This document shows, in pieces, positions 1,021-12,798 of a stretch of DNA of 64,000 bases. The DNA is from Streptomyces sp. NBC_00557 (GTDB taxonomy: Bacteria; Actinomycetota; Actinomycetes; Streptomycetales; Streptomycetaceae). The position numbers and the translations under genes were made by a program. How positions within the stretch are numbered: the stretch's first letter is position 1; every line of letters starts with the position of its first letter. The notes under the pieces were generated by a model. It was not told the DNA's origin. It was given only the letters and a program-made list of their open reading frames with translations, and searched no databases. The stretch covers positions 6,758,001 to 6,822,000 of the forward strand of contig NZ_CP107796.1 of the NCBI RefSeq assembly GCF_036345995.1, given 5' to 3'.

Positions 1021-1677
1021 GTGATCTTCCGCGGCGGGCGGGCAGGTGGGCGGGCAATCCCCTGGCGGCCGTCGTCCGTATACAGAAGTGTGTCGGGTCT
1101 GCGGTTCCCCGAGGGCCGTCTCCCGGACGAGGCCCTGCTGGCCGGGCTGGCCACCGGGGACCCGGAACTGGCGGCTGTCTTCGTCCGCAGGTTCCAGCGC
1201 CGGGTCTTCGGCGTCGCCATGGCCGTCACCGGCGACGAGCAACTCGCCGAGGACGTCGCCCAGTCGACGTTCGAGCGGGCGTGGCGTCATGCGCAGATCT
1301 ACGACTCCCGCCGCGGCTCGGTCGCCACCTGGCTGACGACCATCGCGCACAACCTCGCCGTCGACGCCGTCCGGGCCCGGCGGAGCCGGCCGATGGCCCC
1401 CGAGGACGTCGACGCCGTCATCGGCGTCGTCACCGAGACCCCCGAGCAGTGGGCGCTGGCCGACGAGGCCTCCGCCGAGCTGCGGGCCGCCGTTTCCCGG
1501 CTGCCCCGGGAACAGGCCCGGGCCCTGGTGATGGCGGGCATCTACGGCATGACGGCCCAGCAGATCGCCGAGACCGAGGAGATCCCGCTCGGGACCGCCA
1601 AGACCAGGATCAGGTCGGCCATGGCGAAACTGCGCACCACGCTCGCGTCCCCGAAGCGAGGCGACCATGTCGAGTGA
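1021..1677 (+). CDS. ECF-type RNA polymerase sigma factor
   Basis: A 218-residue group 4 sigma factor. Region 2 (about residues 40-105) includes FVRRFQRRVFGVAMAV and the core-binding/-10 segment QSTFERAWRHAQIYD...SVATWLTTIAHNLAVD. Region 4 (about 155-210) contains LPREQARALVMAGIYGMTAQQIAE and a helix-turn-helix ending GTAKTRIRSAMAKLR. The GTG at 1021 has a GGCGGAGA-like sequence about 8 bases upstream; GTG 1090 would remove an atypical 23-residue extension and is a fair alternative. The 3' end overlaps the anti-sigma gene by 11 bases, implying translational coupling and that the pair forms one regulatory switch. Confidence 0.88.
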   Translation: MIFRGGRAGGRAIPWRPSSVYRSVSGLRFPEGRLPDEALLAGLATGDPELAAVFVRRFQRRVFGVAMAVTGDEQLAEDVAQSTFERAWRHAQIYDSRRGSVATWLTTIAHNLAVDAVRARRSRPMAPEDVDAVIGVVTETPEQWALADEASAELRAAVSRLPREQARALVMAGIYGMTAQQIAETEEIPLGTAKTRIRSAMAKLRTTLASPKRGDHVE

Positions 1678-2434
1678 CGCCGGCTGCGAGAAGCTCCGGG
1701 AGATGGGCGCCGAGCTGGCGCTGGGCGTGCTGCCCGGCCGCGAGCGCGCGGAGGCGGTCGCCCATCTGGACCGGTGCGCGGACTGCCGGGAGTACGTCCG
1801 CCGGCTCACCCTGGTCGGCGACCGGCTGATCGGCCTGCTGCCGGACGCCGACCCGCCGGCCGGGTTCGAGACCCGGACGGCGCGCAGGCTGGCCGGGCAG
1901 GCGTCCGCGCACGAGGGCCGGGAGGGCGCCGCGGCCCGCGCGGCCCGGGGCCTGCGCGGGCGGGCCCGCCGGGCCAGGCTGCGGTTCGCTGCCGTCGTCG
2001 CCGCGGTCACCGTCGCCGTCGGCTTCGCCGGGTGGGGGGTCGGCACCGCCGTGGAGGCGGTCATCGCCTCGACCGCGCCCGCCGTCGTGTCCGAGCCGAT
2101 GATGGTCGGCGACATGACGTCGGCCGGGCACGGCGGGCAGTCCGCCGGCGAGGTCTACGCCCACCCCGGAAGCCCCGGCTGGGTGTTCGTGTCCGTCGCG
2201 CTCGCCGGGCCGCGCCGCTCGTACACCGGAAAGGTCACCTGTCTCCTGCAGCACTCCGACGGCACCTCCGTGCGGGTCGGCGACTTCCCGCTGACCGGTG
2301 GGCGCGGCCAGTGGGGCGTGGCCGCGCCGGGCGACCTGTCGACGCTCACCGGCGCCCGGCTGACCGCTCCCGACGGCACCGTCCTCGCCACGGCCCAGCT
2401 GCACAAGGGCCAGGTGGTGGAGTCCGAGGCGTGA
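1667..2434 (+). CDS. Membrane-anchored zinc-finger anti-sigma factor
   Basis: A 255-residue protein with an N-terminal anti-sigma zinc domain: the H-x3-C-x2-C element reads HLDRCADC at about residues 34-41. One membrane segment follows (about 105-135, RFAAVVAAVTVAVGFAGWGV), then an extracytoplasmic C-terminal domain rich in beta-like segments ending VLATAQLHKGQVVESEA. The architecture fits a sensor that holds the preceding ECF sigma factor at the membrane and releases it on an envelope or redox cue. The start ATG lies inside the sigma gene. The signal sensed cannot be read from the sequence. Confidence 0.86.
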   Translation: MSSDAGCEKLREMGAELALGVLPGRERAEAVAHLDRCADCREYVRRLTLVGDRLIGLLPDADPPAGFETRTARRLAGQASAHEGREGAAARAARGLRGRARRARLRFAAVVAAVTVAVGFAGWGVGTAVEAVIASTAPAVVSEPMMVGDMTSAGHGGQSAGEVYAHPGSPGWVFVSVALAGPRRSYTGKVTCLLQHSDGTSVRVGDFPLTGGRGQWGVAAPGDLSTLTGARLTAPDGTVLATAQLHKGQVVESEA

Positions 2435-2450: not shown

Positions 2451-3299
2451 TCAGGGCTCCGGCGGCAGCGCCGGCTCCAGGGCCGCGGTCAGCTCGGCGA
2501 CCGTGGGCCGCGCCGCCGGGTCCGGCCGCAGACAGGCGTCCACGGCGGCGGCGAGCGGGCGCGGCAGCCGCCGCCGGGACGCGATGGGCGGAGCCGTCTC
2601 CGCGGCCCCCGGGCACCGGCCGTCCGTGGTGCCGCCGCTGTCGTCCGCCGTCTCCCCGTGGCCGAACGGCGGCTCGCCGCACGCCACCTCGAACAGCGTG
2701 ACGCCGATGCCCCACACGTCGGCGGCCGCCGTGAGCGGTCCGCCGCGCGCCTGCTCCGGAGCCCGGTAGCCGCACGTGCCCACCCCGGCGGGCGCGCGTC
2801 CCGGCGGCCGGGCGACGCTCAGGTCCAGCACCTTGGCGTGACCGCGCTCCACCACCACGTTGGACGGCTTGAGGTCCAGATGCAGCAGGCCCCGGCCGTG
2901 CAGATAGTGGGCGGCGGAGCACAACTGCACGCCGAGCAGCGCCACATCGGCCGCGGCCGGCCGGCGCCGCAGGCGGTGCACCAGATGGGACAGCGTCTCA
3001 CCGGTCAGCGTCTCCAGGACGACGAGCGGTTCGGGCCGCTCCACGGTCTCGTAACCCCGCACCAGGTGCGGATGGCTGAACTCCCGCAGCCACCGGCCCT
3101 CCCGCAGCAGCCGCGCGCCCAGCCCCTCCTCGCCGCGCAGATCCGGCCGTACGACCTTGATCACGCACCGGCAGGCCCGCTCCTCGCTCCACGCGTCGTA
3201 CACGTCGAGCCAGCCGGTGCGGGTCAGATGGGCCAGGATCGCGTACCCGGGAGCCGGGTGCGCGCCCGGTGCCAGGGCCGGGGGTGCGGGGCCGCTCAT
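2451..3299 (-). CDS. Soluble Ser/Thr protein kinase-like protein with non-canonical motifs
   Basis: A 282-residue eukaryotic-type kinase fold without a membrane segment. The VAIK lysine is present (CVIKVV, about residue 44), but the glycine-rich loop is not recognisable. The catalytic loop reads HLDLKPSN instead of HRDLKPxN, the metal motif is DLS instead of DFG, and the APE motif (RAPEQ) and the DVWGIGV helix are intact. HRD arginine loss suggests activation-loop-independent activity or weak catalysis. The ATG overlaps the exporter stop codon (ATGA at 3296-3299), so the kinase is coupled to the ABC transporter and is the last gene of the minus-strand operon. It converges with the anti-sigma gene. 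Confidence 0.8.
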   Translation of the reverse strand: MSGPAPPALAPGAHPAPGYAILAHLTRTGWLDVYDAWSEERACRCVIKVVRPDLRGEEGLGARLLREGRWLREFSHPHLVRGYETVERPEPLVVLETLTGETLSHLVHRLRRRPAAADVALLGVQLCSAAHYLHGRGLLHLDLKPSNVVVERGHAKVLDLSVARPPGRAPAGVGTCGYRAPEQARGGPLTAAADVWGIGVTLFEVACGEPPFGHGETADDSGGTTDGRCPGAAETAPPIASRRRLPRPLAAAVDACLRPDPAARPTVAELTAALEPALPPEP

Positions 3300-5110
3300 G
3301 ACAGCACCGTGCCCGCGCTCAGCCGGTGCAGCCGGGCGTACGCACCCTGGCGGCGCAGCAGGTCGTCCGGGGCGCCGTGCTCGACGACCCGGCCGTGGCC
3401 GAGCACCACGATCCGGGTGGCGTCGCGGACGGTCGGCAGGTTGTGGGAGATCACGACGGTCGTCCGGCCGGCCATGAGCCGGCGCAGCGGTTCCATGATC
3501 CGCCGGCCCGAGCGCACGTCGAGCCCGGTGGTCGGCTCGTCCAGCAGCAGCACCGGCGCGTCCCTGATCATCGCCCGCGCGATCGCCAGGCGCTGGCACT
3601 GCCCGCCGGACAGCGTGCGGCCGCGCTGGCCGACGAGCGTGTCGTAGCCCTCCGGGAGCCGCTCGATGAACTCGTGGGCGTCCGCCGCGCGGGCCGCCGC
3701 GACGATGTCCGCCTCGCTCGCCCCCGGCCGGCCGTAGGCGATGTTCTCCCGCACGGTTCCGTGGAAGACGAGCGTCTCCTGGAGCACCACGGCGACGCTG
3801 TCCCGGACGTCGGACAGCCGCAGCTCCCGCAGATCGGTCCCGTCGAGCCGGACCGCGCCCCGGTCGGGGTCGTAGAACCGCAACTGCAGCTTGGCGACGG
3901 TCGACTTGCCGGCCCCGCTGGCGCCGACCAGCGCCAGCGTCTCGCCCGGGGCCACCCGGAAGGACACCGCCGACAGCGCCCAGGACGGGGCGCCGGGATA
4001 GCGGAACCAGACGCCGTCGAACTCCAGCGCGCCCCGCGCCCGCCCGGTCCGCCGGGCGTCGGCCCGCTCGCGGACCTGCGGCCGCTGGTCCAGCAGCTCG
4101 ATGATCCGCTCGGCCGAGGCGGAGGCCGCGTAGAAGGTGGTGCCGAGCCCGGACAGGCCGTGCACCGGGCCGTACAGCTTGCCGATCAGGGCCAGGAAGA
4201 CCAGCAGCCCGCCCAGCGTGAGCTGACCCTGGGCCAGCTTCCAGGTGCCGAGACCCATCACCGCGAGACCCCCGGTCACCTCGATGATCTCGACGACCGG
4301 CGCGTAGACGGCCCGGATCCGCGCGGAGGCCATCACCGCCCGGAACCTGCCGACGCCCTCCCGCTCGAACCGGCGCTCCTCCCAGCCCTGCCGGTTGTAC
4401 GCCTGCACCAGCGCCACGTTGCCCAGCACCTCCTCGGCGATCGCGCTGAGGGAGCCGCTGCGCCGCCTGCGCTCCCTGGACGCCGCCTTGACCAGCCGGG
4501 AGAAGTGCCGGGCGGCCCCCCAGAACAGGGGCACGATGAGCAGCGCCAGCACGGTCAGGTCCCAGCGCAGGTAGAAGAGCAGGCCGAGGAAGAGGGCGAG
4601 GCGGATCACGTAGTACAGGGCGTCCGCGACCCCCGAGAGCAGGAAGGTCTCCACCGCGTCGACATCACCCGTGATGCGGGAGAGCACGTCGCCGAGCCGC
4701 CGGCGCTCGAAGAAGCCGAGCGACAGTCCCTGGACATGCCGGAAGACGTCGCAGCGCAGCGACAGCAGGAAGCGTTCGCCGACCCAGGTCGAGATCATGT
4801 CGTCGGCGAAGCGCAGGACGCCGGAGAAGAGGATGAGGCCCAGATAGGCCGGTGCGATCCACACGAAGGGCCGCAGGTCGCGGGGGACGAGGACGGCGTC
4901 CACCACGGTCTTGAACAGCCACAGCTCGGCGGCGTCCACGGCCGGGCCGAGCAGGCTGAAGACGACGACGGGCGCCAGCCAGCGCCGGCCGCCGCGCGTA
5001 TAGGGCCAGAACCGCCGGAACACCGCGCGCGGCGGCACCGGGGGCGCGGCCGCCACGACGCCGTCGGACGCCTCCGCGACCGACAGCAGACGCCGCAGGA
5101 CATGCGCCAT
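3296..5110 (-). CDS. ABC exporter, fused membrane and ATPase domains
   Basis: A 604-residue half-transporter of the type IV exporter class. Residues about 30-325 form the six-helix membrane domain. The ATPase domain (about 355-595) has Walker A GASGAGKST, Q-loop VLQETLVF, signature LSGGQ, Walker B VLLLDEPT and switch histidine SHN. It should work as a homodimer exporting lipid, peptide or drug-like substrates. The start ATG lies 84 bases after the His-rich miniprotein gene, on the same strand. Placement after flavoprotein and reductase genes suggests export of something linked to their redox role, but the substrate is unknown. Confidence 0.9.
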   Translation of the reverse strand: MAHVLRRLLSVAEASDGVVAAAPPVPPRAVFRRFWPYTRGGRRWLAPVVVFSLLGPAVDAAELWLFKTVVDAVLVPRDLRPFVWIAPAYLGLILFSGVLRFADDMISTWVGERFLLSLRCDVFRHVQGLSLGFFERRRLGDVLSRITGDVDAVETFLLSGVADALYYVIRLALFLGLLFYLRWDLTVLALLIVPLFWGAARHFSRLVKAASRERRRRSGSLSAIAEEVLGNVALVQAYNRQGWEERRFEREGVGRFRAVMASARIRAVYAPVVEIIEVTGGLAVMGLGTWKLAQGQLTLGGLLVFLALIGKLYGPVHGLSGLGTTFYAASASAERIIELLDQRPQVRERADARRTGRARGALEFDGVWFRYPGAPSWALSAVSFRVAPGETLALVGASGAGKSTVAKLQLRFYDPDRGAVRLDGTDLRELRLSDVRDSVAVVLQETLVFHGTVRENIAYGRPGASEADIVAAARAADAHEFIERLPEGYDTLVGQRGRTLSGGQCQRLAIARAMIRDAPVLLLDEPTTGLDVRSGRRIMEPLRRLMAGRTTVVISHNLPTVRDATRIVVLGHGRVVEHGAPDDLLRRQGAYARLHRLSAGTVLS

Positions 5111-5194
5111 GGGAGGGTCCCTCGGGGATCGGCGGCGATCGGCGGAGCGGACCGGGGCCTGGCGGTCTCCGGTCCCCTCCGCCTTCGTGGGCGA

Positions 5195-5371
5195 TCAGTA
5201 TCCGTGGTGGTCGTGGTCGCCGTGGCTGTGACGGTCGAAGTGGTCGTGGCGGTGACCGCCGGTGTGCCGGTGCCCGTGGCGGTGCCCGTGCCGCGTGCCG
5301 AAGTGACGTGAGGTGTCGTCGCGGTCGCGGTCACGGCGCTTGGCGGGCAGCAGACTGCTGAAGATGGCCAT
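5195..5371 (-). CDS. 58-residue histidine-rich miniprotein
   Basis: A small gene with an excellent ribosome site (AGGAGGAG, 5 bases before the ATG at 5371). The product begins MAIFSSLLPAKRRDRDRDD and then becomes a histidine-rich tail of alternating H-G-H, R-H and D-H: 14 of the last 36 residues are His. The frame closes at TGA 5195-5197. No signal peptide or membrane helix is evident. It lies between apbE (82 bases upstream) and the ABC exporter on the same strand. A role as a metal (Fe, Ni, Zn or Cu) buffer or chaperone for the reductase/exporter system is inference from composition only. I do not recognise a family. Confidence 0.72.
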   Translation of the reverse strand: MAIFSSLLPAKRRDRDRDDTSRHFGTRHGHRHGHRHTGGHRHDHFDRHSHGDHDHHGY

Positions 5372-5453
5372 AGCGCTCCTCCTGGAACTCGTTGCACACG
5401 GGATACGTCCCAGGACGGAAACGGGATGGCCTTCACCGGCAAAAAGATGCGGG

Positions 5454-6257
5454 TCAGCCCAGTCGCGCGGCCAGCCCCCCGGTGCAGCGCACCTCGTCCC
5501 CGGCCGTGATCAGCAGGGCCTCCACGCCGGGCAGCGACTCCAGCCAGGCCAGCCCTGCCCGCGACCCCATCGCGAACGCCGCCGTGGCCCAGCAGTCGGC
5601 CCAGGTGAGCCGGGGTCCCACGACCGTCACCGCGACCAGGTCCGACACCGCCGACCTGCCCGTACGCGGATCCACGATGTGCGCGCCCCGCTCGGCCGTG
5701 CCCGAGGTCGCCACCGACAGCTCCGCCAGACCCGCCGCCGAGATCACCGCCGCCAGACCCCCGGGCCGGAGCGGATCGGCCACTCCCACCCGCCACGGCC
5801 GCTGCGGCTCCGGCGCACCGAGCATCTGCACGTCCCCGCCCCCGTTGACGCTCACCCCGCGCACCCCGGCCACCCCCGCCAGCAGCCGCGCCGCCCGCTC
5901 GGCGGCCCAGCCCTTGACGATGCCGGTGGGGTCCAGCGAGCCGCGGTAGCGGGGGCTGAACCAGCCCTCGCTCACCCGCTCCGCCTCGTCGGCCAGTACC
6001 AGCACCTCGGCCACCTCGGGCGAGCAGTCCGCCACGGTCAGCTCACCGCGGACGAGCCGCGAGACCTCGCTGTCCTCGCGGTAGGTGCTGAAGACCGCGT
6101 CCGCGCGGTGCAGCCCGGCGACGGCCTCGGCCAGCGCCTGCCGCACGGCGCCGGGTTCCCCGCCGCGGACGTCGAAGGAGAAGACGGTCCCCATGACCTC
6201 CTCCGCGTGACGCACCGCGGCGGGAGCTTCGGCCGGCTCGGTCACCGTGTCAGCCAC
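5454..6257 (-). CDS. apbE: FAD:protein FMN transferase (ApbE family)
   Basis: A 267-residue ApbE protein that moves FMN from FAD onto a Thr in SGAT-type motifs of target proteins. Seen are HAEEVMGTVFSFDV, FSTYREDSEVSRL, DPTGIVKGWAAE, VNGGGDVQMLG, the metal/FAD region SVATSGTAERGAHIVDPRTG and ADCWATAAFAMG. No signal peptide or lipobox is seen, so it should act in the cytoplasm. The GTG start at 6257 overlaps the stop of the two-domain FMN-binding gene by 8 bases. That gene is the obvious substrate, together with the single-domain protein at 8499-8990. Confidence 0.92.
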   Translation of the reverse strand: MADTVTEPAEAPAAVRHAEEVMGTVFSFDVRGGEPGAVRQALAEAVAGLHRADAVFSTYREDSEVSRLVRGELTVADCSPEVAEVLVLADEAERVSEGWFSPRYRGSLDPTGIVKGWAAERAARLLAGVAGVRGVSVNGGGDVQMLGAPEPQRPWRVGVADPLRPGGLAAVISAAGLAELSVATSGTAERGAHIVDPRTGRSAVSDLVAVTVVGPRLTWADCWATAAFAMGSRAGLAWLESLPGVEALLITAGDEVRCTGGLAARLG

Positions 6258-7026
6258 CGGCCTGGTCCAGCGCCGACTGGAGGGACTGCCGGTAGCCGGT
6301 GCTGGTGTAGGTGGCGCCGGAGACGGCGTCGATGTGCGCGGTGCCGGCCGCGACGGCCTCCTGGTTCAGCTTGGGCACGGCCATCGCGGTCTTCTGGTCG
6401 CTGAGTCCGCCCTTGGGCGCCTGGACGGCCTCCGCCTTGGTGATCTTCCCGCCGGCGACGGTGATCCGCACCTGGACCGGCCCGTACTGCGTCTGCGCCA
6501 CCTTCCCGGTGACCGTACGGGCCTGCGCCGCACCGGAGGAGCCGGCGCCCGACGCACCGGAACCCGCCGGCTTCATCTTGTCCAGCGCCGACTGCAGCGA
6601 CTTCTTGTAGCCGTCGCTCGTGTACGTCGCCCCCGACACCGCGTCGATCCGCGCGCTCTGCGCCGCGACGGCCTCCTGGTTCAGCTTGGGCACGGCCATC
6701 GCGGTCTTCTGGTCGCTGAGCCCGCCCTTGGGCGCCTGGACGGCCTCCGCCTTGGTGATCTTCCCGCCGGCGACGGTGATCCGCACCTGCACGGTCCCGT
6801 ACTGCGTCTGCGTCGCGTCACCGGTCACCGTGCCGGAACCCGCGCCCGCCGCCTGCGACCCGCCCTGCGGGGCCTGCTGCCCCGCGACCGTCTGCTGCGG
6901 CGCGGCGCCCGCCGCCGAAGCGGCGGCCGGACCGGACGCCGGCTTCAGCGACAGCAGCAGCACGACACCGGACACCGTCGCGGCGGTGGCCAGCACGACC
7001 CGCCGAATGGGGTGGCTCTTCCTCAT
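6250..7026 (-). CDS. Exported tandem FMN-binding domain protein (two SGAT motifs)
   Basis: A 258-residue protein starting MRKSHPIRRVVLATAATVSG, with a hydrophobic segment to about residue 26 and twin arginines compatible with a Tat-type signal or anchor. A Pro/Ala/Gln-rich linker leads to two FMN_bind domains (about residues 68-150 and 173-256), each ending in DAVSGATYTS, the site flavinylated by ApbE. It should carry two covalent FMNs outside the membrane, accepting electrons from the reductase encoded upstream. The two domains are nearly identical at DNA level over 128 bp, showing recent internal duplication. The ATG lies 17 bases after the reductase stop, with apbE overlapping downstream. 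Confidence 0.9.
   Translation of the reverse strand: MRKSHPIRRVVLATAATVSGVVLLLSLKPASGPAAASAAGAAPQQTVAGQQAPQGGSQAAGAGSGTVTGDATQTQYGTVQVRITVAGGKITKAEAVQAPKGGLSDQKTAMAVPKLNQEAVAAQSARIDAVSGATYTSDGYKKSLQSALDKMKPAGSGASGAGSSGAAQARTVTGKVAQTQYGPVQVRITVAGGKITKAEAVQAPKGGLSDQKTAMAVPKLNQEAVAAGTAHIDAVSGATYTSTGYRQSLQSALDQAGG
6347..6474 (-). repeat. Direct repeat copy A inside the FMN-binding gene
   Basis: This 128-bp segment recurs at 6662-6789 (offset 315 bp) with one difference, T at 6406 against C at 6721. The offset equals 105 codons, one FMN-binding domain plus linker. Such identity across synonymous sites points to recent duplication or gene conversion. Confidence 0.95.
6662..6789 (-). repeat. Direct repeat copy B inside the FMN-binding gene
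   Basis: Partner of the repeat at 6347-6474, encoding the same stretch of the N-terminal FMN-binding domain of this protein. Unequal crossing-over between copies would change the number of flavin domains by exactly one. Confidence 0.95.
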
Positions 7027-7043
7027 CTGTCCGTAGCTCCCGC

Positions 7044-8426
7044 TCACATCTCGAACGACTCGTGATGGATGCGGCGGGCGGGGACCCCCGCGCCGCGCAG
7101 TGCCTCGTACACCGACTGGGCGAACCCGGGCGGGCCGCACATGAAGACGTCGTGGCGGTCGATGTCCGGGATCTTCCGCTTCAGGTTCTCCGCGGAGATG
7201 TCCGGCCGCTCGCCGTCGGGGCTGTTCACCGCGTACATCAGCCGGGCGCCCCGCTCGTCGGCGATCTTCGCCAGCTCGTCCCACAGGGCCAGGTCCTGGG
7301 TGCTGTTGGCCCGGTAGAGCAGGGTGATGTCACCGGCCGCGCCGGGCAGCGTCTCGAACAGCGCCCGCATCGGGGTGATGCCGACCCCGCCCGCGACCAG
7401 CAGCACCTTGCCGCGGCTGCGGCGCTGCGCGGTGAGCGCGCCGTACGGCCCCTCCGCCCACACCCGGGTGCCGGGCGTCAGCTCGCGCAGCCGCGCGCTG
7501 TGGTCGCCGATCGCCTTCACCGTGATCCGCAGCATGTCCGGGCGGGGCGCCGCCGACAGCGAGTACGGGTGCGAGCTGAACCGCATCCCGGGCGCCAGGA
7601 ACCGCCAGCGGAAGAACTGGCCCGCCTCCGCGCCCATCCGGTGCAGCCTGCGCCCGCCGATCAGCACCGACACGATGCCCGGCGTCTCCTCGATGACGGC
7701 CTCCACCCGCATCCGGTGCCGCAGGTTCAGCCGGATCGGGGTGAGGATGCGGTACCAGAGCACCAGCGCGGTGACCGCGCCGTACAGGCCGTACCAGAAG
7801 GTCTTCGCCACGGGCTCGACCGCGAAGTCGTTGCCGGTGGTGATCTGGTGCCAGAACGTCAGGAACACCGCCGCGTACGTCATCAGGTGCACGTGGTACC
7901 AGGTGTCGTACGGCATCCGGCGGCGGACCGCGCCGACGGAGGTGAGCCCGATCAGCACGAACAGGCCGGTGCCGACGGCAGCCTTGCCCAGGTCCGGCAG
8001 CTGGTTGATGGAGTCCATGGTCTGCTGGACGATGTCGCCGAGCGACTTGCCCGCCTGCCGCGCGTACCCCCACATGGTGAGGAAGACGTGCGCCACGATC
8101 AGGGAGAGGGTGTAGCGGCCGCTCATCGCGTGCCAGCGGGCCACCCGGTCCGAGCCGACCCGCCGCTCCAGCGCGGGCACGCGCGCCATCTGGAGCACGA
8201 CCAGCGCCATCAGATAGCCGGCCAGCAGGCCGGTGATCCGGCCCGCGTTGAGGATCCTGCCGGTGTCGTCGGCGATGGACGGGGTGTTGTGCCACCAGAG
8301 CCACAGCACGGCCGCCGCGCCCGCCCAGACGGCGAGCAGCAGCGGTACGGCCGGGCTGCGGCGCGGGCGGATGCGGCGCATCGTCTGGCGGCGGGCGGCA
8401 CGTCCGCCTGCGAGCGTGGTGGTCAC
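7044..8426 (-). CDS. Ferric-reductase/NADPH-oxidase-like transmembrane flavocytochrome
   Basis: A 460-residue protein with a six-helix ferric reductase-like membrane domain (about residues 20-225) and a cytoplasmic ferredoxin-reductase module (about 230-460). Candidate haem histidines are in RWHAMSGRYTLSLIVAHVF and WYHVHLMTYAAVFLTFWHQ. FAD binding is indicated by SSHPYSLSAAP, NAD(P) binding by LLVAGGVGITPMRALFE and FMCGPPGF. It should take electrons from cytosolic NAD(P)H across the membrane. The GTG at 8426 is preferred because GGAGG lies just upstream. It sits between two FMN_bind genes and is paralogous to the protein at 9019-10371. Confidence 0.88.
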   Translation of the reverse strand: MTTTLAGGRAARRQTMRRIRPRRSPAVPLLLAVWAGAAAVLWLWWHNTPSIADDTGRILNAGRITGLLAGYLMALVVLQMARVPALERRVGSDRVARWHAMSGRYTLSLIVAHVFLTMWGYARQAGKSLGDIVQQTMDSINQLPDLGKAAVGTGLFVLIGLTSVGAVRRRMPYDTWYHVHLMTYAAVFLTFWHQITTGNDFAVEPVAKTFWYGLYGAVTALVLWYRILTPIRLNLRHRMRVEAVIEETPGIVSVLIGGRRLHRMGAEAGQFFRWRFLAPGMRFSSHPYSLSAAPRPDMLRITVKAIGDHSARLRELTPGTRVWAEGPYGALTAQRRSRGKVLLVAGGVGITPMRALFETLPGAAGDITLLYRANSTQDLALWDELAKIADERGARLMYAVNSPDGERPDISAENLKRKIPDIDRHDVFMCGPPGFAQSVYEALRGAGVPARRIHHESFEM

Positions 8427-8498
8427 GGTTCCTCCGTGGGGACTTGACCCTTGGCCCTCAGATACGTGCCGCATGCGCTCGGTGTTCAGCGTGACCGC

Positions 8499-8990
8499 TC
8501 ACAGCCCCGCGGAGTCGAGCGCGGACTGCAGGGACTGCTTGTAGCCGGTGCTGGTGTACGTGGCGCCGGACACCATGTCGATGTCCGCGCTCTGCGCCGC
8601 CAGCGCCTCGCGCCGCAGCTGGGGCAGCGCGTAGCTGTTGATCTCCTGGTCGCGCGGGTTGTCCTGCGGGTACCGCACGGCGGTCACGTCCGTGAGCTTC
8701 CCGCCCGTGATCGTCACCCGCACCTGGACCGGGCCCCAGCGGGTCTGGACGGTGTCGCCGGTGGCGGTCCTGCTGCCCGTCGCCGACCCCGGGGAAGAGC
8801 CGCTCGATCCCCCCGACGAGCCGCTCGACGGGGCCGAACTGCCCGACACCGTGGGGGACTTGGTGTCGGCCGTGGCGAGCGTGGGGCCCGTGTGCGGCTT
8901 CAGCGACAGCAGCAGCACCATCCCGGTGACCGTGGCGGCGCCGGCCAGCACGATGCGGCGCAGGGGGCGGTTCCTCTTCAGGGCATGCAC
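8499..8990 (-). CDS. Exported single FMN-binding domain protein
   Basis: A 163-residue protein beginning MHALKRNRPLRRIVLAGAAT, with a twin-arginine plus hydrophobic segment much like the paralogue at 6250-7026. A Ser/Gly-rich linker (about residues 44-75) is followed by one FMN_bind domain ending DMVSGATYTSTGYKQSL. The Thr of SGAT is the expected covalent FMN site. Immediately upstream (28 bases) is the 450-residue reductase, so each reductase gene is followed by its own FMN carrier gene. The protein probably relays electrons to an extracytoplasmic acceptor that is not encoded here. Confidence 0.88.
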   Translation of the reverse strand: MHALKRNRPLRRIVLAGAATVTGMVLLLSLKPHTGPTLATADTKSPTVSGSSAPSSGSSGGSSGSSPGSATGSRTATGDTVQTRWGPVQVRVTITGGKLTDVTAVRYPQDNPRDQEINSYALPQLRREALAAQSADIDMVSGATYTSTGYKQSLQSALDSAGL

Positions 8991-9018
8991 GTGTTCTGCC
9001 TCACAGCTTCGCTGGTTG

Positions 9019-10371
9019 TCACAGTTCGAACGACTCGTGGTGGATACGGCGGTCCGGGACCCCGGCGGCCCGCAGCGCCTCGTACACCTCGCGGGCGAAG
9101 CCGTGCGGCCCGCAGATGTAGACGTCGTGGCCGGCGATGCCGGGGAAGGCCGCGCGCAGCGACTCCGCCGTGATGCGGGGCCGCTCGCCCCGGGGACCGT
9201 TCAGCGCGTACAGCACCTGGGCGCCGCGCCGGCGGGCGATCGCCTCCAGTTCCCCGCCGAGCGCCAGGTCCTCGACGCCGCGCGCCCGGTACAGCAGGGT
9301 GACCTCGCCGGGCAGCGTCTCGAAGAGCGCCCGCAGCGGGGTGATGCCGACGCCGGCCGCGATGAGCAGACAGTGGTGGCTGGTGGCCCGGTCGGCGGTC
9401 AGGGAGCCGTAGGGGCCCTCCGCCCACACCCGGGTGCCGGGCCGCAGCAGGGCGACGGCCGCGCTGTGGTCGCCGAGCGCCTTGACCGTGATGCGCATCA
9501 TGTCCGGGCGCGGCGGCGCGGACAGGGAGTACGGCGTCGACGTCCAGCCCAGCCCCTGGCCGAGGAACCGCCAGCGGAAGAACTGCCCCGGCCGCGCCGC
9601 CAGCTCGTCCAGGCGCCGCCCGCGCACGACGACCGAGTACACACCGGGCGCCTCCTGGTGGACGGAGTCCACCCGCAGCTGGTGGCGCCGGTTGAGGCGG
9701 ACCGGGGTGAGGATCCGGTACCAGAGCACCAGGGCCGCGACGCCCAGGTACAGCGCGTACCAGACGGCGGTCGCGACGGGCTTGCCGTTGAACTCGTTCC
9801 CGAGCGTCAGCTGGTGGAAGAAGGCCAGGAACACGGCCGCGTACGTCAGCAGGTGGACGTAGTACCAGAACTCGTGGCTGGTGCGGCGGCGCACCGCCCG
9901 CGCCGAGGTGACGCCGACCGCGAGGAGGATCACCGTGCCGGCGGTGGCCTTGAGCATGTCCGGATAGTCCAGGACGACCGTCACCGCCTCGTGCCACAGC
10001 GAGGCCCGGTCCTGGGCGGCGTACCCGGCGAGGATCAGCGCGATGTGCGCGAGCAGCAGGCAGACCGTGTACCGGCCGGCCATCGCGTGCCAGCGCGCCA
10101 CCCGGTCCGAGCCTGTCCGCCGCTCCAGCAGCGGCACCCGCGCCATCAGGCCGACCAGCACCGCGCAGGCGTACCCGCACAGCAGCCCGGCGATCCGCCC
10201 GGCGCCGGTCAGCCAGCCGGCCGTGCCGACCACGGAGGCGGTGTCCGCCCACCACAGCGCGACCACGGCCGCCGCCCCGGCCCACAGCACGGCCAGCACG
10301 GGCCCCGCGGGGGAGCGCCGTGCGGTCACGGGCGCCGGCGGGGCCGCCCGCCCCGCATCCACGGTGGTCAT
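9019..10371 (-). CDS. Ferric-reductase/NADPH-oxidase-like transmembrane flavocytochrome (paralogue 2)
   Basis: A 450-residue paralogue of the 7044-8426 protein with the same order: membrane domain with histidine pairs in RWHAMAGRYTVCLLLAHIA and FWYYVHLLTYAAVFLAFFHQ, then FAD site (TSTPYSLSAPPRPDMM), NAD(P) site (LLIAAGVGITPLRALFE), and ICGPHGFAREVYEAL, ending HHESFEL. It is the first gene of the minus-strand operon. The 208-bp space to the divergent two-component system contains repeated TCAGAG boxes, so phosphorelay control is likely. The ATG at 10371 begins MTTVDAGRAAPPAP. Confidence 0.88.
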   Translation of the reverse strand: MTTVDAGRAAPPAPVTARRSPAGPVLAVLWAGAAAVVALWWADTASVVGTAGWLTGAGRIAGLLCGYACAVLVGLMARVPLLERRTGSDRVARWHAMAGRYTVCLLLAHIALILAGYAAQDRASLWHEAVTVVLDYPDMLKATAGTVILLAVGVTSARAVRRRTSHEFWYYVHLLTYAAVFLAFFHQLTLGNEFNGKPVATAVWYALYLGVAALVLWYRILTPVRLNRRHQLRVDSVHQEAPGVYSVVVRGRRLDELAARPGQFFRWRFLGQGLGWTSTPYSLSAPPRPDMMRITVKALGDHSAAVALLRPGTRVWAEGPYGSLTADRATSHHCLLIAAGVGITPLRALFETLPGEVTLLYRARGVEDLALGGELEAIARRRGAQVLYALNGPRGERPRITAESLRAAFPGIAGHDVYICGPHGFAREVYEALRAAGVPDRRIHHESFEL

Positions 10372-10418: not shown

Positions 10419-10531
10419 GCTCTGAGCCACCTCTGAACGACCCCCTGACCAGGTGCTGTGAGAGCAGACTCAGAGGTGGTTCTCAGCCGGTCTTCAGCGG
10501 ACCGGGGACCGGCTCAGAGAAAACTCAGAGG
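10419..10531. promoter_or_regulatory. Repeated TCAGAG boxes between reductase operon and response regulator
   Basis: Three related sites are seen. Site a, 10419-10438, reads GTTCAGAGGTGGCTCAGAGC on the minus strand. Site b, 10468-10486, reads ACTCAGAGGTGGTTCTCAG on the plus strand and shares the 10-mer TCAGAGGTGG with site a in opposite orientation. Site c, 10511-10531, has two CTCAGAG units with an 11-bp period. OmpR-family regulators typically bind direct repeats spaced by about one helical turn, so these are the likely operators of the adjacent regulator for both divergent promoters. Confidence 0.6.
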
Positions 10532-10579: not shown

Positions 10580-11320
10580 ATGAACACGACCCGTTCCGGC
10601 CGCCCGGCCCTCACCCGACCCGACGGCACCCCCGTGCGCGTCCTCGTCGTCGACGACGACCCCGACCTCGCCGAGGTGCTCACCGGCGCCCTGCGCTACG
10701 AGGGCTGGCAGGTGCGCGCGGCCGGCGACGGCGCCGCGGCCCTCGACGGCGCGCGCGAGCTGCTGCCCGACGCCGTGGTCCTGGACGTGATGCTCCCGGA
10801 CACCGACGGCTTCGCCGTGCTGCGCCGGCTGCGCGAGGTGAAGCCGGACGTCTGCGTGCTCTTCCTCACGGCCCGGGACGCGGTGGAGGACCGGATCGCG
10901 GGCATCACGGCCGGCGGCGACGACTACGTCACCAAGCCGTTCAGCCTGGAGGAGGTCGTCGCCCGGCTGCGCGGCCTGCTGCGCAGGGCCGGCATGGCCC
11001 GCCAGCAGGAGGAGGGCCCGCGGCTGACGGTCGGCGACCTGGTCATGGACGAGGAGGCCCGCGAGGTCAGCCGGGCCGGCGAGCTGATCGAACTCTCGCC
11101 CACCGAGTTCGAACTGCTCCGCTTCCTCATGCGCAACCCGCGCCGGGTGCTCAGCAAGGCGCAGATCCTCGACCGGGTGTGGTCCTACGACTTCGGCGGC
11201 CGGGCCCATGTCGTGGAGCTGTACATCTCCTACCTGCGCAAGAAGGTCGACGCGGGCCGCGCACCCATGATCCACACCGTGCGCGGGGCGGGATACGTCC
11301 TGAAACCGGTGACCACGTGA
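10580..11320 (+). CDS. OmpR-family response regulator
   Basis: A 246-residue regulator. The receiver domain (about residues 17-130) has acidic pocket VVDDDPDLAEVL, phospho-acceptor Asp in VVLDVMLPDTDGF, Thr in LFLTARD and Lys in VTKPFSLEEVV. The C-terminal winged helix (about 148-244) contains SPTEFELLRFLMRNPRRV and AHVVELYISYLRKKVD. ATG 10580 is used; in-frame ATG 10565 is an alternative. It is translationally coupled to the sensor kinase (GTGA overlap) and probably controls the divergent flavin/reductase operon and its own gene through the TCAGAG boxes. Confidence 0.92.
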   Translation: MNTTRSGRPALTRPDGTPVRVLVVDDDPDLAEVLTGALRYEGWQVRAAGDGAAALDGARELLPDAVVLDVMLPDTDGFAVLRRLREVKPDVCVLFLTARDAVEDRIAGITAGGDDYVTKPFSLEEVVARLRGLLRRAGMARQQEEGPRLTVGDLVMDEEAREVSRAGELIELSPTEFELLRFLMRNPRRVLSKAQILDRVWSYDFGGRAHVVELYISYLRKKVDAGRAPMIHTVRGAGYVLKPVTT

Positions 11321-12798
11321 GCCGTCCGCATGTCCGCGCCCGCCTCGCCCGGCTGCCCCGGCCCCGCACCCTGCGCGCCCGCCTCACCTTCGGCCTCGTG
11401 GTGCTGCTGGCGGTGAGCTGCGCCGCCGTGGGCCTCGCGGCCGTCGTCGAGCTGGACGGCTTCCTCACCCAGCGCTTGGACGAGCAGCTCGCCCAGGTCG
11501 GCACCCGCTTCCCGGAGAGCCTGGAACACAACGGGAGGGTCCCCGACGACCACGACGGGGACGAGAAGGGCGACACCCGCCGCATGGCCACCGGCACCTT
11601 CGGCGCCCGCCTGCTCGACGGCACGGTCACCAACAAGGGCCTCATCCGCTCCGGGGACCTGGGCGCGGACCTGAACGTCGACCTGACCGCGCAGGATGCG
11701 GCCCGGCTGGCCCGCGTCCCGGTCGACGGCCGGCCGCACACCGTCGAGCTGTCCTCCCTGCACCACTACCGCGTCGTCGCCTCCGCCGGCCGGGACGGGG
11801 ACGTGCTGCTGGTGGGACTGCCGCTGGAGCCGGTCGAGAGCGCGGTCCACCGGCTGGAGGCGGTCGCCGCGATCGTCTTCGGCGCGGCCCTGGTGGTGAC
11901 GGGGGTGGCCGGCGCGCTCTGGGTCCGCTGGTCGCTGCGTCCCCTGAGCCGGGTCGCCGCCACCGCCACCCGGGTCAGCGAACTGCCGCTGGCCAGCGGG
12001 GAGGTGGCGCTGCCACCGCGCGCTCCGGACGCCGACCCGGGCACCGAGGTCGGCCGGGTGGCGGCCGCCTTCAACCGCATGCTGGGCCATGTCGAGGACG
12101 CCCTGACCAAGCGTCACGCGAGCGAGGAGCGGCTGCGCCGGTTCGCCGCCGACGCCAGCCACGAGCTGCGCACCCCGGTCGCCTCGGTCCGCGGCCACGC
12201 CGAACTGGCCCTCCTCCACCCGGGCCCGGTGCCGCCGGAGGTGACCCGGGCGTTGCAGCGCATCACCGCCGAGTCCGCCCGCATGGGGGAGATGGTCGAC
12301 GACCTGCTCCTGCTCGCCCGCCTCGACGCCGGCCGCCCGCTGGAACGCGAGCCGGTCGACCTGACCCGCCTGGTCCTGGACGCGGTCACCGACGCCCGCG
12401 CCGCGGGCCCCGGCCACCGCTGGAGCCTGGACCTGCCCGAGGACCCGGTGACGGTCCCCGGCGACGCCCACCGCCTCCACCAGGTGGTGGCCAACCTGCT
12501 GGCCAACGCGCGTACGCATACCCCCGCGGGCACGAAGGTGACGGTCACCCTGGAGGCAGACGCCGGTTCGGCCGTCCTCCGCGTCCACGACGACGGCCCC
12601 GGCGTCCCGGAAGAGGTCCGGCCCGGCGTCTTCGAACGCTTCACCCGGGCGGAACACCGCCGCCACCCGAACGCCTCCGGCGCGGGCGCGGGCCTGGGGC
12701 TGTCGATCGTGGCGGCGGTGGCGGAGGCGCACGGCGGGACGGTGGGGCTGGAGAGCCGGCCGGGCTCCACGGCGTTCCGGGTACGCCTGCCCCGCTGA
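11317..12798 (+). CDS. Sensor histidine kinase
   Basis: A 493-residue membrane kinase starting at GTG 11317, overlapping the regulator stop by 4 bases. TM1 is at about 24-45 (LTFGLVVLLAVSCAAVGLAA). An extracytoplasmic sensor of about 130 residues follows, then TM2 (VAAIVFGAALVVTGVAGALW, about 185-208), HAMP, HisKA (DASHELRTPVASVRGHAEL) and HATPase boxes N (HQVVANLLANARTHTP), G1 (DDGPGVP) and G2 (GAGLGLSI). The sensor domain has no motif I recognise. From context it could monitor the envelope redox state or metal supply served by the neighbouring operon. Confidence 0.93.
   Translation: MSRPHVRARLARLPRPRTLRARLTFGLVVLLAVSCAAVGLAAVVELDGFLTQRLDEQLAQVGTRFPESLEHNGRVPDDHDGDEKGDTRRMATGTFGARLLDGTVTNKGLIRSGDLGADLNVDLTAQDAARLARVPVDGRPHTVELSSLHHYRVVASAGRDGDVLLVGLPLEPVESAVHRLEAVAAIVFGAALVVTGVAGALWVRWSLRPLSRVAATATRVSELPLASGEVALPPRAPDADPGTEVGRVAAAFNRMLGHVEDALTKRHASEERLRRFAADASHELRTPVASVRGHAELALLHPGPVPPEVTRALQRITAESARMGEMVDDLLLLARLDAGRPLEREPVDLTRLVLDAVTDARAAGPGHRWSLDLPEDPVTVPGDAHRLHQVVANLLANARTHTPAGTKVTVTLEADAGSAVLRVHDDGPGVPEEVRPGVFERFTRAEHRRHPNASGAGAGLGLSIVAAVAEAHGGTVGLESRPGSTAFRVRLPR

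Follow-up and report, generated by a model that had tools for sequence, protein, structure and literature searches.

The stretch of DNA analysed here (the window) spans 64,000 nucleotides of the Streptomyces sp. NBC_00557 genome (9.02 Mb, two contigs; NZ_CP107796.1, positions 6,758,001–6,822,000), and its positions 2451–10371 carry a row of minus-strand genes. The original prediction listed eight such genes with named functions; all eight were found as open reading frames (ORFs), with domains assigned by Pfam, which bears it out. The genes A1, B1, A2, B2, and apbE, together with a divergent two-component system, are a flavinylation cluster of a published kind, termed "MsrQ-like". Genes for a short peptide, an ATP-binding cassette (ABC) exporter, and a Ser/Thr kinase form a cassette that is independent of this flavin module and has its insertion site between apbE and argR (the genes at the left end of the window are taken to be argR and argD). 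The features are as follows.

9019..10371, minus strand: A1, ferric-reductase-like membrane protein with a C-terminal NAD(P)-binding domain, flavin pair 1 (PF01794, PF00175)
8499..8990, minus strand: B1, single flavin mononucleotide (FMN) carrier of the FMN_bind family, with an SGAT site, a hydrophobic N-terminus and an RR motif (PF04205)
7044..8426, minus strand: A2, second ferric-reductase-like protein, Ferric_reduct and NAD_binding_1 domains (Pfam; nearest solved relative 8qt6)
6250..7026, minus strand: B2, tandem FMN_bind carrier with two SGAT sites (Pfam; match to 8p2a, E 1.2e-38)
5454..6257, minus strand: ApbE flavin transferase (PF02424; no signal peptide by eye)
5195..5371, minus strand: peptide H, 58 aa, MAIFSSLLPA followed by a His/Arg/Asp tail, proposed exported peptide, without a family
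5111..5194, minus strand: hairpin between the peptide gene and the exporter gene (dG -45.5 kcal/mol, z -3.5)
3296..5110, minus strand: ABC exporter, ABC_membrane and ABC_tran in one chain (Pfam; nearest named model MsbA, below cut-off)
2451..3299, minus strand: Ser/Thr kinase, kinase domain alone (Pkinase, Pfam; catalytic residues conserved)
1667..2434, plus strand: anti-sigma factor, its gene converging on that of the kinase; in many genomes it adjoins the cassette (gene-order comparison)
1021..1677, plus strand: extracytoplasmic function (ECF) sigma factor, partner of the anti-sigma factor (domain scan)
10580..11320, plus strand: OmpR-type response regulator, divergent from A1 (Pfam)
11317..12798, plus strand: sensor histidine kinase (Pfam)
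10420..10437, plus strand: putative site for the regulator, close to A1 (direct repeat CTCTGAGN4CTCTGAA)
10513..10530, minus strand: putative site for the regulator, close to its own gene (direct repeat CTCTGAGN4CTCTGAG)

The divergent two-component pair (10580–12798) and the convergent ECF sigma/anti-sigma pair (1021–2434) were absent from the original prediction. A2 probably starts at GTG 8426, preceded by a good ribosome-binding site, and not at 8474 as in the mechanically called ORF; similarly, the kinase probably starts at ATG 3299, not at 3599 inside the exporter gene, and with this start its gene overlaps the exporter gene by 4 nt. The gap from apbE to the His-rich peptide ORF is 82 nt, and that from this ORF to the exporter gene is 84 nt.

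Gene order at flavin and exporter loci

A search with ApbE over 150 genomes of the genus, including the window's, gave matches in 84. Besides the window's genome, 55 have a close ApbE orthologue (at least 77% identity); 54 of their loci were compared, which together with the window makes 55 flavin loci (G138, at a contig start, was left out, and the count omits two short fragments in G102). A2, B2, and apbE stand alone before argR at 31/55 of these loci; the two-component system and A1 are added upstream at 13/55; the complete set with exporter, kinase, and sigma factor is seen at 5/55; a single locus has the exporter but no kinase; and the remaining 5/55 are single variants or contig-end cases. 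The exporter is thus present at 6/55 flavin loci and not found at 49/55 (among them L079, which ends before argR), the kinase is present at 5/55, the His-rich ORF at 6/55 only, and the two-component system with A1 at 21/55. The claim of two reductase–carrier pairs stands as far as domains and carriers go, but the pairs are separable, given the 31 loci with A2-B2-apbE alone. At outgroup loci L090–L093, A1 and an FMN_bind gene accompany the two-component system, and the group has an apbE of its own, hence the pairs look like modules that came together.

Exporter orthologues (at least 67% identity) occur in 16 of the 150 genomes, 6/16 at the flavin locus and 10/16 elsewhere in the genome. At the ten loci away from flavin genes, the small ORF is found upstream of the exporter in 10/10, and the kinase adjoins it in 9/10 (the contig ends at L102). 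Comparison of gene order, as called for by the original prediction, therefore shows that the exporter and the kinase do not regularly occur with the flavin genes, and the suggestion that they serve the flavin system fails. Extended by a named-genome scan and two further searches, the exporter set comprises 68 distinct loci (exact exporter duplicates L131, L284, L285, L287, L297, and L312 removed; L103 is without an exporter); 33/68 lie at the flavin locus, in what is not a random sample. On a quick exporter tree under a simple model (67 rows; L137, with a short reading frame, left out), the flavin-locus label needs four changes. At L138, the cassette adjoins argR with no apbE.

Between apbE and argR, L039 carries a kinase fragment with the sigma and anti-sigma factors, and L040 the sigma and anti-sigma factors; such partial cassettes suggest loss after insertion. 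Cassettes are also seen on linear plasmids, L355 (S. cathayae) and L354 (S. nigrescens plasmid SNP1); at L355, exporter and kinase match in pieces.

Peptide, exporter, and kinase of the cassette

The 58-aa ORF looks like a real coding sequence, since variation in the N-terminal codons of 34 distinct sequences sits mainly at third positions (entropy 0.55/0.36/1.14 bits at positions 1/2/3); in the same 34 sequences, a conserved ribosome-binding site precedes the ORF. A signature peptide (short basic ORF bearing the N-terminal signature, within ~900 nt upstream) is present at 26/29 loci of exporter relatives with 44–88% identity, while of 19 ABC_membrane hits in the window's genome (some in one chain or adjacent), only the window exporter has an upstream peptide. 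The signature was drawn up after viewing the same relatives, hence 26/29 vs. 1/19 shows specificity for the group and is not an independent prediction. In the window, the strict register MxxFxxxxPA is matched by one of 1145 start codons of 25–90 aa frames, that of the peptide itself. The Streptomyces set has 48 peptides in the strict register, 16 that depart from it, and three rows without a signature peptide (L117, L135, L315); at L235, four tandem copies are seen.

Hydrophobic and conserved at its N-terminus, the peptide has a hypervariable tail. Within the kinase-bearing Streptomyces set, the average tail is 23% His; the same gene slot in relatives holds Lys/Pro, poly-Arg, Trp-rich, or Ser-rich peptides. 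A homologue search with the window peptide gave four matches including itself, with a Lys/Pro-type peptide 77 (names, where given, "hypothetical" or "uncharacterized", one also "Histone H1"; organism, where given, Streptomyces), and with a poly-Arg-type peptide zero. Four peptides (window, L143, L144, L108) were scanned against Pfam and NCBIfam, without a match to any model. Exporters without an adjoining kinase (L108–L111, L217–L235) go with Lys/Pro/Ala-rich or Arg/Tyr/Gly-rich peptides, sometimes in tandem.

The exporter has 604 residues, with ABC_membrane and ABC_tran within 48–528 and no C39 peptidase domain by Pfam. The hairpin before its gene has a mean z of -2.6 over 60 cassette loci with a gap of at least 25 nt (simple block shuffle); among the loci scored, L105 lacks a hairpin (z 0.7), and L102, L104, L128, and L286, with gaps of 17 or 3 nt, were left unscored and have no hairpin. 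Such a hairpin would fit the making of much peptide and little exporter. The kinase (282 aa) consists of the kinase domain alone, with no lyase or cyclase domain, and its residues K48, E67, D142, N147, and D159 are invariant in 62/62 aligned relatives. Assignment to a defence system was rejected: in PADLOC, the kinase matches a wide range of kinase models, and the exporter matches ATPase parts.

A kinase search over 396 Actinomycetota genomes gave 14 hits besides the window's genome. Twelve are in family codes f56/f80, and an exporter adjoins 11 of them (not L341); nine of these 11 loci have the signature peptide (eight strict, one a residue shorter), typically MAxFSxxxPA with a Ser/Thr patch and an Arg run. 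At the f47 hits L352 and L353, no exporter is seen in the stretch read. In Jeotgalicoccus aerolatus (L145, Bacillota), two tandem peptides in the same register accompany an exporter (42%) and a kinase that shares 43% identity with that of the window. Streptomyces thus has the peptide–exporter–kinase triad, mostly with MxxFxxxxPA, in common with a further class of Actinomycetota and with one genome of Bacillota.

In Saccharopolyspora, Modestobacter, and Blastococcus (L142–L144), a flavin adenine dinucleotide (FAD) monooxygenase follows the exporter. For the enzymes of L143 and L144, the best-matching model is salicylyl-CoA 5-hydroxylase and the next VioD, neither match reaching its cut-off; the L142 enzymes were identified from N-termini only. 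The upstream peptide is Trp-rich in 4/4 readable monooxygenase cassettes:

L142 3167–3301 and about 9687–9887: Trp-rich peptides, Blastococcus, two tandem sets
L143 9714–9866: Trp-rich peptide, Saccharopolyspora
L144 8985–9134: Trp-rich peptide, Modestobacter

These may be cassettes for peptides with modified Trp. The window's genome has relatives of the monooxygenase at C1:8228746–8229900 and C1:5221817–5223013.

Kinase status over the 67 exporter rows is present in 49, absent in 15 (including L300, with a 46-residue remnant), and unknown in three at contig ends (L102, L139, L141). On the tree it requires nine changes, at least seven by starred branches. As the kinase accompanies the exporter in other taxa too, the changes within Streptomyces seem to be about nine losses; L135 is the ninth change and lies outside the eight events considered below. 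Kinase-bearing rows with a peptide have at least two Ser/Thr after residue 10 in 47/47 cases, and 14 kinase-less rows with a peptide have none in nine cases and one in three. Comparing the eight loss events with the 47 kinase-bearing rows, which are related to one another, the Ser+Thr share of the peptide falls from 0.127 to 0.028 (p 3e-4) and that of Asp rises from 0.136 to 0.236 (p 0.009, failing correction over 20 residues), with His and Gly level. Relative to the three nearest kinase-bearing relatives, Ser+Thr is lower in 7/8 events and Asp+Glu higher in 6/8. Among distinct loci fetched later, 5/6 kinase-less ones have zero or one Ser/Thr and 13/13 kinase-bearing ones at least two; several share ancestry with earlier rows, three of the loss events are new, and two of these fit.

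Identity and regulation of the flavin module

PF01794 scores 59.2 bits in A1 and 67.9 in A2 (cut-off 28), and PF00175 34.3 and 41.2 bits (cut-off 22); FMN_bind proteins with the SGAT site and apbE are both present in the cluster. The second B2 domain aligns over its entire length with 8p2a (E 1.2e-38), which we take to be SaFMN3-D2, the second domain, of Streptomyces azureus, and A2 matches 8qt6 (E 1.7e-13; PDB label "FAD-binding FR-type domain-containing protein"), presumably SpNOX, a bacterial NOX. B2 has one to three FMN domains at the same locus across genomes; in the SGAT count over the 55 loci, the search pattern had no match in five B2 reading frames. The reading of these genes as reductases, FMN carriers, and ApbE is supported by the domains and agrees with a published class: MsrQ-like clusters, in the available part of Meheust et al. 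(2021; PMC8238504), have a PF01794 protein, often with PF00175, together with FMN_bind and apbE, number 1797, are broad in Actinobacteria and infrequent outside, and are in part linked to an iron transporter. For SaFMN3, the available part of its description (PMC10339131) reports three covalent FMN in the purified protein, a potential of -184 mV, reaction of the reduced form with O2 at a rate of 1.2 per second, a crystallised second domain, and a putative flavin transferase gene flanking its own.

The window's genome has a second flavin locus, C1:1925135–1926065 (L094), with ferric-reductase-like, FMN_bind, and ApbE genes at ~40–48% identity. A hydrophobic N-terminus and an RR motif were seen in 55/55 best B2 matches (that of L088 being B1), and no apbE N-terminus showed a signal peptide by eye. 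Export, by twin-arginine translocation (Tat), of carriers already flavinylated by a cytosolic ApbE stays a lead only, since the carriers of outgroup loci L089 and L094 are without RR though their apbE products look cytosolic likewise.

The region between the regulator gene and A1 contains repeats CTCTGAG-N4-CTCTGAG near the regulator and, in reverse orientation, near A1. Matches with at most two mismatches are found in 24/25 loci for each orientation, the pattern having been derived from the same intergenic regions; 1/500 base-shuffled regions reach this level with the forward pattern. The conserved repeats lead to the prediction that the regulator controls A1-B1 and its own gene, and A1-B1 are probably under the control of the divergent two-component system. 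Genome-wide, sites with zero or one mismatch are limited to this region and C1:7810700, next to a LysR-type gene and a gene for a 170-aa protein (by eye). A search for the electron acceptor through the regulon was abandoned: sites with at most two mismatches number 13 forward and 13 reverse vs. 11 and 10 for a reversed-pattern control, and as this is barely above the control, no regulon is claimed.

Interpretation and relation to known systems

On balance, and with moderate confidence, we favour two independent modules lying side by side, one for electron transfer through flavinylated carriers and one for export of a peptide that would be phosphorylated and secreted. A1 and A2 would oxidise NAD(P)H in the cytosol and pass the electrons through the membrane, via hemes as described for the class, to the presumably membrane-anchored carriers B1 and B2, which ApbE would flavinylate on the SGAT threonines. 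The small ORF would encode a disordered peptide made in large amounts, its N-terminal segment conserved (MxxFxxxxPA in most members) and its tail polybasic and rich in His; the free-standing kinase would phosphorylate Ser/Thr of this tail, and the dedicated ABC exporter would secrete the product, with extracellular functions presumed. A wider reading, which we put forward as tentative, is that of a widespread family of secreted, enzyme-modified disordered peptides: the shared N-terminus (MxxFxxxxPA or close variants) may hand interchangeable low-complexity tails, rich in His, Arg, Lys/Pro, Ser, or Trp, to the exporter; the enzyme may be exchangeable and match the tail, with the kinase going with Ser/Thr tails and the FAD monooxygenase, a relative of VioD and salicylyl-CoA hydroxylase, with Trp tails; and phosphate may supply the negative charge that kinase-less lineages encode as Asp.

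Several observations weigh against these readings. Across much of one clade, the cassette has been kept beside the flavin genes, which makes some benefit of this position possible. The signature peptide is missing at 3/29 exporter loci and at 2/11 exporter–kinase loci outside Streptomyces (L347, L349), and 16/64 Streptomyces peptides fall outside the strict register. L147 has a Trp-rich ORF upstream of the exporter with no monooxygenase recognised beside it, and L349 a 69-aa Asn/Trp/Gly-rich ORF upstream of an exporter with a kinase, hence tail type and enzyme are not always matched. The Ser/Thr pattern was noticed post hoc on the earlier loci; kinase-less L126 and L305 retain five and three Ser/Thr, Asp+Glu does not rise in 2/8 events (L300, L126), and nominal differences are seen for Ala and Tyr as well (p 0.018 and 0.026). 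Strict independent pairs, six on starred branches, are underpowered: four to five go the same way and none the opposite way (p 0.06–0.125).

Adjacency, common strand, short gaps, and the share of exporter loci lying at the flavin locus in the enlarged, non-random set would fit a single system, as originally proposed, with the exporter and kinase moving or regulating a partner of the flavin chain; however, the exporter is lacking from most flavin loci, the cassette occurs elsewhere without nearby flavin genes, the same triad is found in another class and a Bacillota genome, and a hairpin precedes the exporter, so that we consider this very improbable. Somewhat unlikely, though deserving more weight, is the possibility that the peptide is an accessory or regulatory subunit of the exporter and not its cargo, with the kinase regulating either and a lipid or small molecule as the true substrate. 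The best exporter model (MsbA, below cut-off), the lack of a peptidase domain, and a hydrophobic N-terminus that is conserved where the tail is not all agree with it, while tandem peptide copies at several loci, hypervariable tails, tail composition that mostly tracks the neighbouring enzyme, and a hairpin that may raise peptide over exporter favour cargo. A role of the peptide inside the cell, as a metal buffer or chaperone that would supply or protect the flavin/heme module, is suggested by the average His content of the tails, but His is not a common property of peptides in this slot, and the ORF is rare at flavin loci; this is improbable.

For the flavin module, a NOX-like oxidase, with reduced carriers passing electrons to O2 and not to ferric iron or a protein acceptor, seems unlikely, if with a real share of the probability. 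The match of A2 to the presumed SpNOX structure points this way. So does the reaction of reduced SaFMN3 with O2 in the available part of PMC10339131; at the same time, part of the class is tied to an iron transporter in that of Meheust et al. (PMC8238504). Reactivity with O2 is general to flavins, and no terminal acceptor gene was recognised at the flavin locus, in favour of either outcome. The flavin half is a regulated two-pair example of a class with largely unknown acceptors, and its conserved putative sites make regulation testable.

In Listeria, flavin-based extracellular electron transfer involves PplA, EetA, EetB, and Ndh2. The likeness to the window is an FMN_bind carrier flavinylated by an ApbE-type enzyme; PplA, Ndh2, EetA, EetB, and DmkA were not found among the ten window proteins scanned, the rest of the genome not having been searched, and the PplA model scores 31.8 bits on B2, far below its cut-off of 325. 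MsrQ-like clusters, in the available part of PMC8238504, share the PF01794/PF00175 membrane protein, FMN_bind, and apbE in one cluster; in the window, by contrast, two reductase–carrier pairs share a single apbE, a two-component system adjoins them, and none of the genes read encodes an iron transporter. SaFMN3, as far as the available text of PMC10339131 goes, has the same SGAT flavinylation site and a domain matched throughout by the second one of B2, but three FMN domains compared with two in the window's B2.

For the cassette, no description was found in the literature searched, by titles and abstract starts and with subscription papers outside. It is easily overlooked, as its products are mostly below 75 residues, of low complexity, and matched by no family model tried. 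If the kinase indeed phosphorylates a secreted peptide, this would be a route of peptide modification and secretion for which no description was found, spread across Streptomyces, another Actinomycetota class, and a Bacillota genome; covariation of kinase loss with Ser/Thr provides a sharp prediction of kinase activity on the peptide. Class III/IV lanthipeptide synthetases LanKC and LanL combine kinase, lyase, and cyclase chemistry. Like these (NF038150, NF038151), the cassette pairs a Ser/Thr kinase domain with its proposed target, a short peptide whose gene lies beside that of an ABC exporter; a class III/IV lanthipeptide system was rejected given the stand-alone 282-aa kinase, without lyase or cyclase, and the window peptide without Cys. 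Peptidase-type exporters of bacteriocins and ribosomally synthesised and post-translationally modified peptides (RiPPs) share the order of short precursor gene, hairpin, and exporter gene; double-glycine export of this type fails here on the lack of a C39 Pfam match, and the window peptide differs further in its low-complexity tail and no obvious double-glycine leader. The most economical reading of the exporter half is a modified, secreted peptide, with the cassette predicted to work like a RiPP or bacteriocin export unit.

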